Part shown: piece by piece, positions 27,076 to 57,439 of the stretch
How positions within the stretch are numbered: the first letter of the stretch is position 1
How the letters are laid out: each line of letters starts with the position of its first letter
Assembly (NCBI RefSeq): GCF_004331685.1
Contig: NZ_SJSM01000002.1
Coordinates: 372,001 to 436,000, forward strand
Origin: Pedobacter hiemivivus
GTDB lineage: Bacteria > Bacteroidota > Bacteroidia > Sphingobacteriales > Sphingobacteriaceae
Direction: 5' to 3'
Length of the DNA: 64,000 nt
Translations under genes and position numbers: made by a program
The notes under the pieces: model-generated
Seen by the model: only the letters and a program-made list of their open reading frames with translations
Databases searched by the model: none
What the model was told of the DNA's origin: nothing

Positions 27076-30000
27076 ATGGGAATGAAAAAGTATTATAAAA
27101 TAATAGCTTTAGTCCTCTTAAGTCACTCCTTTATAACAGGCGCACGAGCACAGTTAAAAGCAGGAACAGAGGGCATATATATAAAAACGGGATCGATGTT
27201 CTCATCAGATGGTTTGGGATTAAAGCCTTCAGCTGATCTTACATTAATTGATCTGAGTTTAGAGAAATCAGCCACACCTGTTACGGGTGATGCGGGATCA
27301 GGAATAAACAGGGGCTATAAATTTAGTGTCCCGCTAACCTTTACGGGAAGCCTGGGCTTTAGTTATTTTACAGCAGAACTTAATAGCAACACTGAAAGCC
27401 TGCTGCAACTTTTCTATAAATCCGCTGAAGCCGACGTTACTTATACCGTTACAACGGGGACTTCAATAAATACTGTTGATAAGTATCTGGAAAACACCTT
27501 TACCAGTACCACTTTTTCTACATTGTCTGCAGCCGATCCGGTAATTTTTGTACCTCCTGCTTCGGCACCAATAACTACAACTGCTGCTGCTACTGTGATT
27601 ACCATTACAGAGGCAACATTAAATGGAACAGTAAATGCTAATTCTGCGAATACCACCATAACATTTGCCTATGGTACGGATGAATCTGTGGTTTCCGCCG
27701 GGGGAGGAACAATTATAGCTGCTACACCTGGTACGGCTTCAGGAATAAGTAATACAATTGTATCCGCGGCTTTAACAGGCTTAAGTGCATCTACTACTTA
27801 TTACTATAAAGTTAATGGATCCAATAGTGTTGGAGACAACTCTGGCTTGGTATTAAGCTTTACAACTAAGGCAGCGCCCTCTACCAATGCCAACCTATCT
27901 GCACTGTCGCTCAGCGAAGGTACTTTGTCGCCGGTTTTTGTTTCCGGGACCACCAGCTATTCAGCTACGGTTGGCAATAGTATAACCTTGGTTACGGTGA
28001 CCGCGGCTCTTGAGGAAGCTAATGCAACCATTATGGTGAACGGGGCTGCGGCAACAAGCGGCAGCGCATCGGGTGCTATCGCGCTGAATGTGGGCAGTAA
28101 TACACTGACCACGTTGGTCACTGCCCAGGACGGTACAACGACGAAAACCTATACGGTATCGATAATTCGTTTAGCTGCTCAAACGATTACCTTTAATGCA
28201 CCTTCGGCAACTATATATGGTGATGCTGACATAACTTTGCCTGCGACTGCAAGTTCCGGACTAACCATCAGCTATATATCTGACAATACATTAGTTGCTA
28301 CCATAAGCGGAAATACCGTAACGATAAAAAGTGCAGGCACAGCAAAAATAACAGCTAGTCAAGCTGGCGATGCTGATTATGATGCCGCCAGTCTGGTGGA
28401 ACAGAATCTTATTGTCAGCAAAAAACCCGTTACTATAACAGCAGATGCGAAAAGTAAGATCTATGGTGATGCTGACCCAGCATTGACTTATGCGGTTACT
28501 ATCGGTTCATTAGTTGGTTCTGATGCCTTCACGGGTGCACTGACCCGTACCCCGGGCGAGACCATCAACACCTATGCAATTACACAGGGTACAGTGGCCT
28601 TGAGCAGTAACTACGCGTTAACATATGAGGCTGTAAACCTTGCTATCACCCCAAAAGCGCTGACCATTGTTGCAAATAACCGCAGCAAAACTTACGGTGA
28701 TGCCCTAACCTTTACAGTTACGGAATTTACCACCATAGGGCTCATCAACGGAAATACCGTTACGGGTGTCAACTTAACCAGTACAGGTGCCATCGCAACC
28801 GCAACTGTGACCGCCGACCCATATCCTATTGTTCCGGCTGCCGGAACAGGAACGGGATTGGAAAACTATGCCATTACCTATGTAAATGGTGCGCTAAGCG
28901 TGGATAAAAAAGCCCTCAGCGTTGTCAATACCAATCGCTCAAAAGCCTATGGTGAGGTGCTAACCAATCTTGACTTTATCGGTTCAATCACCGGACTAGT
29001 GAACAATGACAATATCAGCTTAACCCGTAATAGTACAGGTGCTACGGCCAATGCTACTGCAGGAACCAACTATCCGATTGTCGCCACACTGACGGATCCG
29101 GACAGTAAACTCGCCAATTATACCTTAACCAATGCAGACGGGCTCCTTACTGTAGCTCAAAAAGTGCTGACCATTATTGCAAATAACCAAAGTAAAACTT
29201 ATGGTGATGCAGTAACCTTTACAGGAACTGAATTTACCACCATAGGACTCATCAATGGAAATGCCGTTACTGGTGTCAACTTAACCAGTACAGGTGCCAT
29301 CACAACTGCAACTGTGACCGTCGGCCCATATCCTATTGTTCCGGCTGCCGCGACAGGAACGGGATTGGAAAACTATGTCATTACTTATGTAAATGGTGTG
29401 CTAAGTGTGGATAAAAAAGCCCTCAGCGTTGTCAATACCAATCGCTCAAAAGCCTATGGTGAGGTGCTGACCAATCCTGACTTTATCGGTTCAATCACCG
29501 GACTAGTGAACAATGACAATATCAGCTCAACCCGTAATAGTACTGGCGCTATGGCCAATGCTACTGCAGGAGCCAACTATCCGATTGTCGCCACAATGAC
29601 AGATCCAGACAGTAAACTCGCCAATTATACCTTAACCAATGCAGACGGGCTCCTTACTGTAGATCAAAAAGTGCTGACCATTATTGCAACTAACCAAAGT
29701 AAAACTTATGGTGATGCAGTAACCTTTACAGTTACGGAATTTACCACCACAGGACTCATCAACGGAAATACCGTTACAGGTGTCAACTTGACCAGTACAG
29801 GTGCCATCACAACCGCAACTGTGATCGCCGGCCCATATCCTATTGTTCCGGCTGCCGCAACAGGAACGGGATTGGAAAACTATGCCATTACCTATGTAAA
29901 TGGTGTGCTAAATGTGGATAAAAAAGCCCTCAGCGTTGTCAATACCAATCGCTCAAAAGCCTATGGTGAGGTGCTGACCAATCTTGACTTTATCGGTTCA

Positions 30001-31797
30001 ATTACCGGACAAGTGAACAATGACAATATCAGCTTAACCCGTAATAGTACAGGCGCTACGGCTAATGCTACTGCAGGAACCAACTATCCGATTGTCGCCA
30101 CACTGACGGATCCGGACAGTAAACTCGCCAATTATACCTTAACCAATGCAGATGGGCTCCTTACTATAGCTCAAAAAGTGCTGACCATTATTGCAAATAA
30201 CCAAAGTAAAACTTATGGTGATGCTGTAACCTTTACAGGAACTGAATTTATCCCGGTAGGATTAGTTAACGGAAATACCGTTACGGGAGTTACCTTAACT
30301 AGTGGTGGTGCAGCGGCTACAGCGAGTGTAACAGGAGCCGCATATTCCATTACTCCCGCTGCAGCTACCGGAATAGGCCTCGATAATTATGCCATCACCT
30401 ATACCAACGGTGTGCTTAGCATTGGAAAAAAGGCACTTGTCGTTATAGCAGAAGACAAAGCGAAATTTTCAGGGAGGGACAATCCGATCTTAACAGCCAG
30501 ATATACCGGGTTTGCCAATGGTGAGGACAATTCGTCACTTTCGGTTCAGCCAGTGTTAAGTACCACCGCAACAACCAATAGTCCAATTGGCGATTATGCC
30601 ATTACGGTCTCAGGGGCTGCTGCTGCCAACTATAGCATTACTTATGCTCCTGGGGTACTGAAAATCAAACCGGCTGCGCCAAATGTGATTACATTAGCTG
30701 CGATACCTTTATTTGAAAACCAGTCTGCGGGAGCGGATGCAGGTACTTTTAGTAGTGTTTCCGAAGATCCAATGGATACCTTTACCTTCAGCCTGGTTGC
30801 TGGAACTGGTGATACAGACAATGGCTTGTTTGCAATCAGCGGAAACAAGATCAGCACAGTTGCCAGTCTTGATTTCGAGAATAAATCCAACTACAACATC
30901 AGGGTAAGATCAAACTCCGTCTATGGATTATGGTTGGAAAAGGAACTTAGCATTACCCTAAATGATGTCAATGAAGTACCAACGCTGGCTGCCATTGCCA
31001 GTCAGGCGATTTGCTATGCCACAACTACACAAGTCTTGCCACTGACCGGCATTTCTGCTGGTCCTGAGACCAATCAAAGTACGACTTTAAGCGTCAGCAG
31101 TAATTCTTCGCTATTTGAAAATCTGAATGTAAGCGGTAACGGAGCTACAGGAAACCTAACCTACCGCATTAAGGAGGGGGTAGGGTCCGGAACGGCAACC
31201 ATAACCGTAACGGTAAAAGACAGTGGTGGGACGGCTAATGGTGGAACAGATACCTTTAGCAGGTCATTTGTCATCACCGTCAACCCTCTTCCGGTTGCAT
31301 CCATCAGCAGTGATAAAGGGACACAGATGAGCAAGGGAGAAGTCGCTGTGTTGAGTGCGACAGGAGGAAGTAGCTATGTATGGGCAAATGCCTCAGGAAT
31401 TATTAGCGGGCACAACACTGCGGTCCTTACGGTCAGACCTTCACAAACCACGACGTACACCCTGACGGTAAGCAATGTAAGTGGTTGTACGCAGGTTCAG
31501 CAGTTTACCATTACCATTCTGGATGATTATGCTAAGGTTAAAGCACTCAATATCCTTTCACCAAACGGTGATGGTTATAATGACAAATGGTTGATCGATA
31601 ACCTTGATTATTATCCAAATAATGAGGTGAAAATCTTTGATCGATCCGGAAGACAAATTTATAGTAAGAAAAGCTACGACAACAGCTGGGATGGTATGTT
31701 AAATGGCGCCGTCCTGGAGGAAGGAACCTATTTCTATGTCATTGATTTTGGTAATGGCAGTCCAAAATTAAAAGGATTTATCACTATTTTAAGATAA
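27076..31797 (+). CDS. Giant MBG-repeat adhesin with CHU_C (T9SS type B) sorting domain
   Basis: A 1573-residue secreted protein; the second ATG (27082) gives the cleaner signal peptide MKKYYKIIALVLLSHSFITG. Domains in order: an N-terminal beta region (to about 165), an Fn3-like module (about 170-265, STTYYYKVNGSNSVGD), a cadherin-like beta sandwich (about 270-365, NANLSALSLSEGTLSP), an Ig-like and MBG modules beginning KSKIYGDADPALTYAV, then a run of seven alternating MBG units, a YDG-like unit, a cadherin-like domain (FENQSAGADAGTF), an Ig-like module (SSDKGTQMSKGEVAVLSATG) and the terminal gliding-associated CHU_C domain (LNILSPNGDGYNDKWLIDNL to FITILR). The CHU_C end predicts type IX secretion and surface anchoring. 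It is likely an adhesin or matrix protein. Confidence 0.93.
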   Translation: MGMKKYYKIIALVLLSHSFITGARAQLKAGTEGIYIKTGSMFSSDGLGLKPSADLTLIDLSLEKSATPVTGDAGSGINRGYKFSVPLTFTGSLGFSYFTAELNSNTESLLQLFYKSAEADVTYTVTTGTSINTVDKYLENTFTSTTFSTLSAADPVIFVPPASAPITTTAAATVITITEATLNGTVNANSANTTITFAYGTDESVVSAGGGTIIAATPGTASGISNTIVSAALTGLSASTTYYYKVNGSNSVGDNSGLVLSFTTKAAPSTNANLSALSLSEGTLSPVFVSGTTSYSATVGNSITLVTVTAALEEANATIMVNGAAATSGSASGAIALNVGSNTLTTLVTAQDGTTTKTYTVSIIRLAAQTITFNAPSATIYGDADITLPATASSGLTISYISDNTLVATISGNTVTIKSAGTAKITASQAGDADYDAASLVEQNLIVSKKPVTITADAKSKIYGDADPALTYAVTIGSLVGSDAFTGALTRTPGETINTYAITQGTVALSSNYALTYEAVNLAITPKALTIVANNRSKTYGDALTFTVTEFTTIGLINGNTVTGVNLTSTGAIATATVTADPYPIVPAAGTGTGLENYAITYVNGALSVDKKALSVVNTNRSKAYGEVLTNLDFIGSITGLVNNDNISLTRNSTGATANATAGTNYPIVATLTDPDSKLANYTLTNADGLLTVAQKVLTIIANNQSKTYGDAVTFTGTEFTTIGLINGNAVTGVNLTSTGAITTATVTVGPYPIVPAAATGTGLENYVITYVNGVLSVDKKALSVVNTNRSKAYGEVLTNPDFIGSITGLVNNDNISSTRNSTGAMANATAGANYPIVATMTDPDSKLANYTLTNADGLLTVDQKVLTIIATNQSKTYGDAVTFTVTEFTTTGLINGNTVTGVNLTSTGAITTATVIAGPYPIVPAAATGTGLENYAITYVNGVLNVDKKALSVVNTNRSKAYGEVLTNLDFIGSITGQVNNDNISLTRNSTGATANATAGTNYPIVATLTDPDSKLANYTLTNADGLLTIAQKVLTIIANNQSKTYGDAVTFTGTEFIPVGLVNGNTVTGVTLTSGGAAATASVTGAAYSITPAAATGIGLDNYAITYTNGVLSIGKKALVVIAEDKAKFSGRDNPILTARYTGFANGEDNSSLSVQPVLSTTATTNSPIGDYAITVSGAAAANYSITYAPGVLKIKPAAPNVITLAAIPLFENQSAGADAGTFSSVSEDPMDTFTFSLVAGTGDTDNGLFAISGNKISTVASLDFENKSNYNIRVRSNSVYGLWLEKELSITLNDVNEVPTLAAIASQAICYATTTQVLPLTGISAGPETNQSTTLSVSSNSSLFENLNVSGNGATGNLTYRIKEGVGSGTATITVTVKDSGGTANGGTDTFSRSFVITVNPLPVASISSDKGTQMSKGEVAVLSATGGSSYVWANASGIISGHNTAVLTVRPSQTTTYTLTVSNVSGCTQVQQFTITILDDYAKVKALNILSPNGDGYNDKWLIDNLDYYPNNEVKIFDRSGRQIYSKKSYDNSWDGMLNGAVLEEGTYFYVIDFGNGSPKLKGFITILR
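28654..30427 (+). repeat. 507-bp tandem repeats (3.5 copies) inside the MBG adhesin gene
   Basis: A 255-bp A unit (from the AAA codon at 28654, coding KALTIVANNRSKTYGDA) alternates with a 252-bp B unit (from 28909, KALSVVNTNRSKAYGEV). A units start at 28654, 29161, 29668 and 30175; B units at 28909, 29416 and 29923, so the period is exactly 507 bp. Most copies are nearly identical in DNA, including synonymous positions, while the last A unit (after about 30250) diverges. In-frame expansion or contraction by recombination is expected. Confidence 0.92.
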
Positions 31798-31828: not shown

Positions 31829-31874
31829 GTAAATGCAAAAAGCCTTAGAGAAATCTAAGGCTTTTTGCATTTAC
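31829..31874 (+). terminator. Rho-independent terminator with perfect 21-bp stem
   Basis: The arms 31829-31849 and 31854-31874 are exact reverse complements with a GAAA tetraloop (31850-31853). The inner stem has a T-rich descending side CTAAGGCTTTTTGC. It lies 31 bp after the adhesin stop and would work on either strand. Confidence 0.9.
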
Positions 31875-32065: not shown

Positions 32066-32204
32066 TGAATAGAAATTATGGATTACAAATTTAATATATA
32101 CAAGGGGTATTCTGGAAATATTAACTGCAGCCCCCGTTACTATGTGGGTTCACTCTGGCTATAGTAAAAAGTAATTTACTTTACCACTACTTAAGGAATA
32201 TTAA

Positions 32205-32302
32205 TCGGACACTGAGCGGCTCAGCCCGTTCAGTGTCCGATCAATGTCCGTTCATTGTCCGCTTAAATGCCGTTCAATAAAAGTTACCTTTAAGGTAACT
32301 TT
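32205..32302. repeat. Composite intergenic element: inverted arms, 11-nt tandem repeats, palindrome
   Basis: Inverted arms TCGGACACTGA (32205-32215) and TCAGTGTCCGA (32230-32240) are perfect. The right arm is the first of four 11-nt units: 32230 TCAGTGTCCGA, 32241 TCAATGTCCGT, 32252 TCATTGTCCGC, 32263 TTAAATGCCGT, plus a decayed fifth. A 23-bp palindrome with TTACCTT-T-AAGGTAA follows at 32280-32302. The gene-free stretch 31875-32470 otherwise holds only the remnant ORF. A similar element is at 57260-57361. Confidence 0.8.
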
Positions 32303-32470
32303 CTGGAGTTAGGTCAGCGTTTTTGGATGGTATTTAAGTATTTTGATAATATTTTTACAAATCGGATCCATCATGGACGGCTGCGGGTGATCTGTAATTA
32401 TTGAAAGGCAGGCTGTTTTTTTAATTTTCGTTCGCTAAATTTGGTAGCTCTCCTTAGGTGGATATAAAAT

Positions 32471-57259: not shown

Positions 57260-57361
57260 TACCTTCAAGGTATATTAGCCAATATTTGGAGGGGTGTTGA
57301 GCAGGCCGCTGGCCCCAGCAATGCCTCGTCAACACCCCGGTAAGGCCCCAACAACGTCCCC
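57260..57361. repeat. Second composite 11-nt repeat element
   Basis: A palindrome TACCTT-C-AAGGTA sits at 57260-57272. Inverted arms GGGGTGTTGA (57291-57300) and TCAACACCCC (57329-57338) are perfect. From 57307 five 11-nt units follow: CGCTGGCCCCA, GCAATGCCTCG, TCAACACCCCG, GTAAGGCCCCA, ACAACGTCCCC. Architecture matches the element at 32205-32302, though sequence differs and the palindrome is on the other side. Confidence 0.75.
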
Positions 57362-57439
57362 GCAATTATAGGTTGTTTTTTGAACTCGATTACGATTTTT
57401 TTAGGAATTGATAGCTGTTGTCCTGGTACTAAGGTTGTC

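Follow-up and report, generated by a model that had tools for sequence, protein, structure and literature searches.

What kind of element is the compact arrangement of 11-nt units, inverted arms and palindrome at 32205-32302 of the window, the 64,000-nt stretch of Pedobacter hiemivivus DNA analyzed here (C12:372001-436000 of the genome designated G000)? The analysis identifies it as one copy of a dispersed hairpin repeat family in Pedobacter, which we call family 1. With moderate confidence, we read it as a fold-back repeat, standing alone here and dispersed elsewhere, whose hairpin would be recognized and disseminated by a trans-acting protein, DUF6266 being the leading candidate for the protein or for the cargo.

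Anatomy of the window copy

The four 11-nt units in register that the initial annotation had singled out are present (Table 1), and the perfect 11-bp inverted repeat that it described as sharing the first unit (TCGGACACTGA/TCAGTGTCCGA) lies inside a 14-bp stem with one G.T pair. The 23-bp palindrome at 32280-32302, which it had listed as an adjoining part, does exist and is the window's sole palindrome with 11-bp arms and a loop of 0-1; in the alignment of copies, however, it corresponds to the conserved right end as found in the window copy and does not count as a part of its own. The lag-11 identity maximum at the window copy was 28/40, compared with at most 26 in simulated windows (n = 60) and up to 27 at the best other lags of the real window.

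We rejected a chance origin of the window copy because a genome search with the window element returned four further copies at E values from 9e-24 to 4e-6 and because 25 copies have ends in common. The earlier judgment that the layout lies beyond chance therefore stands, and the case that it had set against itself, an element with no further copies in the genome above the chance level, does not apply. Matches to CGGACATTGAACGG with up to two mismatches showed no excess (38 vs. 35 for the control), and all 12 matches with no or one mismatch fell inside the five family-1 elements from the genome search. Elsewhere in the window, positions 27076-31797 hold a 1573-aa ORF with many similar repeats around SKTYGDA, surface-protein-like by eye.

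Table 1. Positions in the window of the parts of the family-1 and family-2 elements
Feature	Position	Strand	Remark
Left-end region, family-1 element	32164-32205	+	AT-rich, AGTAATTTACTTTACC...TTAA...ATTAAT; outer limit approximate; aligned with 24 other copies from four genomes
Stem left arm CGGACACTGAGCGG, inverted units	32206-32219	+	RNA fold of 32190-32305, z = -10.1
Stem right arm CCGTTCAGTGTCCG, holds unit 1	32226-32239	+	
Four 11-nt units in register: TTCAGTGTCCG / ATCAATGTCCG / TTCATTGTCCG / CTTAAATGCCG	32229-32272	+	
Degenerate fifth 11-nt step after the four units	32273-32283	+	
Right-end motif, window copy TTACCTTTAAGGTAACTT, consensus TTAACTATAAGGAAACTT	32284-32301	+	3 mismatches to consensus; from the alignment
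Family-2 element: stem GGGGTGTTGA...TCAACACCCC, 11-nt units CAAnnCCCCrG, then CAATTATAGG	57291-57372	+	
TACCTTCAAGGTA, coincidental palindrome outside family 2	57260-57272	+	

Family 1 is dispersed in intergenic DNA

Family-1 copies consist of a left end, a stem-loop whose arms carry 11-nt units in opposite orientation, two to five direct units in 11-nt register, and a conserved right end resembling TTAACTATAAGGAAACTT. Nine copies were read in G000: the window copy, the four from the genome search, and four more to which the best matches to the right end led and which have the same ends with the unit GGGTAATGTCC replacing TTCAATGTCCG. The family-1 alignment comprises 25 copies from four genomes (9 in G000, 10 in G301, 2 in G239 and 4 in G209), one copy of G226 (L191), one of G209 (L186/L195) and the places for which no sequence was retrieved being absent from it. 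The aligned elements measure ~130-220 nt and stand at many unrelated intergenic sites. Conservation covers both ends, the stem and a CCG that recurs every 11 nt; relative to each other, the ends are only weakly inverted.

Family 1 was found in 5 of 144 Pedobacter genomes among the best 6 candidates per genome, which overturned its apparent restriction to G000 in a survey of 201 genomes of the taxonomic family that used another query and sample. The right-end consensus with up to three mismatches was not enriched overall in four genomes, and the majority of its matches are probably due to chance since their number, 89, does not exceed the 118 of a backward control. For matches with at most two mismatches, where the surroundings were read, array elements account for 7 of the 8 in G000 and for 6 of the 7 in G301; the remaining two loci, L224 and L246, show no array.

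A second family at 57290

The initial annotation had placed a second element with the same parts at 57260. An 11-nt array and a stem are indeed found there, but they have another unit and belong to another family (family 2), and the supposed link through the palindrome did not hold. Because TACCTTNAAGGTA occurs at two places in the genome, those of the two window elements, which is no more than a control pattern, and is absent from other family-2 copies, the TACCTT palindrome at 57260 is a coincidence.

Besides the element at 57290, G000 contains three further family-2 copies. The family was found in 3 of 145 genomes (best 6 candidates per genome) and also in P. nyackensis, and 7 of the 13 stretches matched in a further search are from Pedobacter. 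Eighteen copies were aligned. G000 shares three orthologous pairs with G209 and one with G274, which makes these copies old at their sites. G274 is Pedobacter sp. MC2016-24 or its twin, a 3,066-base locus of it being identical in every letter to part of a record of that strain. In G274, copies L063, L059, L070, L072, L076 and L085 carry a GATACGA-like second unit type that continues the 11-nt register after the C-rich units.

A wider class of 11-nt arrays

The 11-nt register, to which the initial annotation had drawn attention as a notable property, was borne out well outside the two families. Element-blind samples of 400 kb each contained six strong lag-11 noncoding arrays in two related species, five of them with new units, and none in a third. 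Four were in G209 (L177, L181, L184, and L186 of family 1) and two in G211 (L133, L145); between lags 6 and 23, no other lag yielded more than one array in these genomes, except for three at lag 22 in G209, and the excess in G211 taken alone, 2 vs. 1, is weak. The sample of the third species, the Pedobacter genome G218, had 0 arrays at lag 11, with 17, 8, 12, 6, 4, 3, 11 and 3 arrays at lags 7, 8, 14, 15, 16, 17, 21 and 22, respectively. In 380 kb of another genus (G091), two lag-11 runs were found, which are A/T-rich, of low complexity, and no more numerous than those at several other lags. Stretches chosen partly around known elements contain more lag-11 arrays than these element-blind samples.

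Ten unit sequences show no mutual BLAST matches at E 1e-3 for the queries tested, namely those of families 1 and 2 and of L094, L095, L107, L133, L145, L177, L181 and L184; we did not count the L178 family, whose period is unclear. Several array types combine a clear inverted repeat with the array, and L145, L184 and some family-2 copies have poor ones. In L107, GG recurs at 11-nt intervals on the left side of the dyad and CC likewise on the right side, with little repetition between. The L095 family has three copies in G209. A class of dispersed fold-back repeats with an 11-nt unit is established.

Two sets of sequences near these samples and arrays were recorded separately. Loci L147-L166 of G218 (e.g. 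L149:13205-13460, L154:643) hold many degenerate tandem arrays of 7, 8 and 15 nt, some of which adjoin TTCATCCGATGACT ends, inverted on the opposite side in two cases. A ~180-nt noncoding sequence (L107:345-525; L106:1613-1790; L087:2876-3056), 86% identical between G000 and G209, lies in each case ~200-600 nt from an 11-nt array and has no Rfam match at the gathering threshold.

Some elements lie in fixed geometry to DUF6266 genes

The genes to the left of several elements encode DUF6266 (Pfam PF19781; 10 neighbor proteins scanned). In this Pfam scan no cognate Y1 transposase appeared beside the repeats, and the recurring neighbor, DUF6266, carried no transposase domain. We set DUF6266 positions from seven genomes against right-end matches with up to three mismatches from four genomes. 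In those four, 10 of 63 DUF6266 genes are accompanied by a family-1 right-end match, where 0.03 would be expected within 300 nt by chance (5/15 in G000, 4/15 in G301, 1/15 in G239 and 0/18 in G209). All ten pairs have one relative orientation, and in each the edge of the DUF6266 profile match is separated by 245-281 nt from the motif's far edge. The paired motifs have no mismatch once, one once, two five times and three three times; an array was read or matched at five pairs (L232, L218, L194, L192 and, through a 135-bp match, G301 C23), the other five showing the motif alone, and the remaining 53 of 63 genes have no family-1 end.

Family 2 keeps the same geometry at L048, L071, L072 and L074, as does the L181 array from the element-blind scan, located just 5' of a DUF6266 gene; L087 has a DUF6266 gene with the array ~870 nt distant. 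Some copies of the families form a larger unit with a DUF6266 gene, in which distance and orientation are fixed. Furthermore, DUF6266 subgroups pair with the array families: for four genes each, identity is 58-81% within and 30-34% between subgroups (58-81% to L232 for family-1-linked and 58-70% to L074 for family-2-linked proteins), the eight genes not being independent cases since L048/L071 and L192/L194 are orthologous loci. At L197 the leader and the first DUF6266 codons are present with no gene, and at L199 part of the leader.

The DUF6266 gene is much wider in distribution than the two array families, because it occurs in 103 of 144 Pedobacter genomes (with up to at least 20 matches per genome) vs. 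5 of 144 for family 1 and 3 of 145 for family 2. It is absent from G218, whose sample has no 11-nt arrays, and numbers 7-18 in six other genomes, all with 11-nt arrays; the six genomes having family 1 or 2 are all among the 37 of 144 with at least 10 DUF6266 matches (hypergeometric p 2e-4, kinship ignored).

DUF6266 has no other Pfam domain. Neither PHROGs nor NCBIfam gave a credible match, a PDB profile search found no credible relative (best matches E 0.97 and 1.3), and the AlphaFold single-sequence model of one DUF6266 was worthless (pLDDT 32). A plasmid or phage origin was rejected: at E 0.01, tblastn with one DUF6266 protein matched none of 72,556 plasmid records and none of 50,697 phage records, one family-1 element had no match in the plasmid records, and IMG/VR contained one distant DUF6266 relative (29%). 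In a literature covering a minority of subscription journals, titles and the beginnings of abstracts yielded no paper under the name DUF6266 and no description of an 11-nt hairpin-repeat class.

Units change at orthologous sites

The L006 site has two units in G000, four in G209 and is empty in G301; the orthologous copies of G000 and G209 differ by 22 nt in unit number, and in G301 the flanks join at TTATAGCA/TAAAGG. The G000 copy at this site is flanked by imperfect 7-nt direct repeats (TATAGCA/TATAACA), which are not clean and only suggestive of a target-site duplication. Since G000 and G209 are both occupied and the G301 flanks are nearer to G000 (86-90%, vs. 82%), the empty site may reflect deletion of the element.

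L002 (TTCA type) and L217 (GGGT type) stand at one orthologous locus with 89% identity across 1,662 nt, yet their stems and most of their units show concerted differences between the species. The G301 copies L215-L218 repeat copy-specific units along the array. The arms of the family-2 orthologues L058 and L067 are wholly different (the L067 stem measures ~27 bp by eye), which suggests that they were replaced by template switching. At L218 (G301) and L232 (G000), DUF6266 and the element stand on opposite sides of a common neighboring stretch that is 70% identical, as if they had been moved or duplicated.

A proposed disseminated hairpin compared with known mobile repeats

In the explanation that we favor, the hairpin with its 11-nt units would be the recognition site of a trans-acting protein, which would disseminate the element as a non-autonomous repeat in a REP/RAYT-like or MITE-like manner, and DUF6266 is the foremost candidate, either as this protein or as cargo of the element. 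The units would expand, contract and homogenize via slippage and template switching in steps of 11. None of the copies compared was caught moving; we infer the function of DUF6266 and, from the copy distribution, the one occupied/empty site, the fixed geometry and the matching subgroups, the mobility of the element and the action of DUF6266 on it.

We could assign the element to no known family, the closest being REP/RAYT systems and BrickBuilt MITEs. RAYT subgroups match repeat subgroups. According to the accessible parts of the reports, REP/REPIN sequences with RAYT (TnpA-REP) are dispersed palindromes tied to a gene family (PMC2817692, PMC8266576, PMC3116915, PMC3733652), and REPs carry a GTAG/CGTC tag at one end (PMC3733652). 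The Pedobacter arrays are likewise palindromic repeats dispersed in intergenic DNA, and are tied to a gene family whose subgroups pair with repeat subgroups; unlike REP/RAYT as far as those accounts go, their partner is DUF6266, by Pfam not a Y1 transposase, they measure ~130-220 nt with 11-nt arrays, and their copy number is low. The Drosophila foldback transposon Tetris, in the available part of its description (PMC4079207), resembles the element in having terminal inverted repeats that contain tandem repeats and in being apparently non-autonomous, but it is eukaryotic, its repeats are of ~220 bp, and DUF6266 does not figure there.

Among other explanations, the one that survives best is an ordinary MITE with a minisatellite, moved by an unrelated IS transposase, with DUF6266 as a passenger; we consider it unlikely. 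Its model would be BrickBuilt of Porphyromonas gingivalis, which in the part of the report available (PMC4596501) has 23-nt units, 1 to 22.8 per element and of one unit family, and IS5-like TIRs. Both are intergenic elements of Bacteroidetes with a leader, internal tandem units (of 11 nt here) and a tail, variable unit number and predicted long stem-loops, and conserved ends on dispersed copies also fit a MITE. The Pedobacter element differs from BrickBuilt, so described, in that its 11-nt units have many unrelated sequences, stand two to five per family-1 copy beside a central stem, and are linked to DUF6266. In addition, right ends with at most two mismatches, where their surroundings were read, belong mostly to array elements, no IS bearing these ends happened to be encountered, and a passenger does not predict unrelated array families with a common 11-nt period and DUF6266 side.

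Hairpins and gene context

A cis-regulatory array, serving DUF6266 and other genes as operator or RNA leader and dispersed as a by-product, was weighed on RNA folding and gene context. The hairpins are strong: RNA fold z values are -10.1 and -8.3 on the two strands of the window copy, -8.4/-6.4 for L217, -6.5/-5.9 for L226, -10.0 for L133 and -3.2 for L107; the strands of L003 differ (-2.7 and +0.2), and folding is weak in the window's family-2 copy (-2.6 and -2.0). G.U exceeded A.C mismatches in the family-1 stem by 34:11 (25 copies; two rows misplaced), by 25:11 without orthologues (p 0.03; L190, which would add 14 matched pairs only, left out, and L202 misplaced) and by 11:6 when distinct types were counted (p 0.33). 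Family 2 showed the reverse, 23:46, and RNAalifold found just 3 pairs in that family. The RNA structure proposed in the initial annotation has mixed support, with strong hairpins in its favor and wobble pairs that lean in opposite directions in the two families; a putative protein array on one helical face is possible. A known RNA family was rejected after Rfam searches, which gave four weak matches over 9 loci (E 0.26-4.9), far below the gathering score and none over an element, and no match for 5 sources, the window among them.

At 15 of 19 unique family-1 loci (the 25 copies minus six orthologues; two-sided p 0.019), the right end points toward the beginning of the following gene, and DUF6266 starts at a fixed distance on the opposite side, both as expected of regulation in cis. 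Against this, the neighbor genes look unrelated, divergent flanks at 10 of 19 family-1 loci are not above a 40% background (gaps of 200-900 nt), and ~5 of 14 family-2 loci, one of them ambiguous, lie between convergent genes, vs. 11% of gaps of 200-900 nt (p 0.012; 4/13, p 0.04, with the ambiguous locus not counted as convergent and an undetermined one omitted). With the wobble test also disagreeing between families, we judge cis-regulation improbable as the main explanation.

The helical phasing itself raises a further alternative, that of phased bendable DNA wrapping a type II topoisomerase at a strong gyrase site. GC peaks recur each 11 nt around the dyad in unrelated elements, and the preferred motif of E. 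coli gyrase, which also binds BIME-2 repeats, spans 130 bp with GC phased at ~10.75 bp, as stated in the accessible part of the report (PMC6379681); BIME-2 shares with our elements their nature as intergenic palindromic repeats, and the gyrase motif the helical GC phasing. The Pedobacter elements, known here from sequence alone, differ from those sites, in so far as that part covers them, in strand asymmetry and conserved ends. By reasoning, bending alone should ignore the strand of G, whereas GG lies left and CC right of the dyad; gyrase also leaves the ends, the dispersal and the DUF6266 linkage unexplained, which makes this reading very unlikely.

Rho loads at regularly spaced C-rich RNA sites, and the 11-nt spacing of CC dinucleotides along one strand, the stem-loops and the frequent position of family 2 between convergent genes could suit a terminator or Rho-loading site; yet at the window copy a simple scan gave no site resembling a terminator, hairpins that look by eye like terminators, with T runs, stand beside elements (window 31837-31870, L058, L061), and orientation toward upstream genes is inconsistent, so that we find this hardly credible. 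Just as hard to credit is a neutral quasi-palindrome growing by slippage without function or dedicated protein, for which the differing L058/L067 arms and the 22-nt change at one site speak, but which would not lead one to expect the same period in ~10 unrelated units, conserved ends or a fixed geometry with DUF6266.

Implications

The fixed-distance tie of some copies to DUF6266 suggests that we are dealing with a small element, mobile or regulatory, of an undescribed kind. It is possible, though we put it forward only tentatively, that DUF6266 and 11-nt hairpin arrays constitute an undescribed self-disseminating system of Bacteroidetes, in which each subgroup would recognize its own array family and in which conservation across families would concern the 11-nt period of one turn and the arrangement of stem plus array, not the sequence. 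The natural variants found here, the unit switch, the empty site and the orthologous length change, make the mechanism directly testable. The arrays thus offer a first lead on DUF6266, a multi-copy family, and represent a class of repeats that retain their period while their sequence is replaced.
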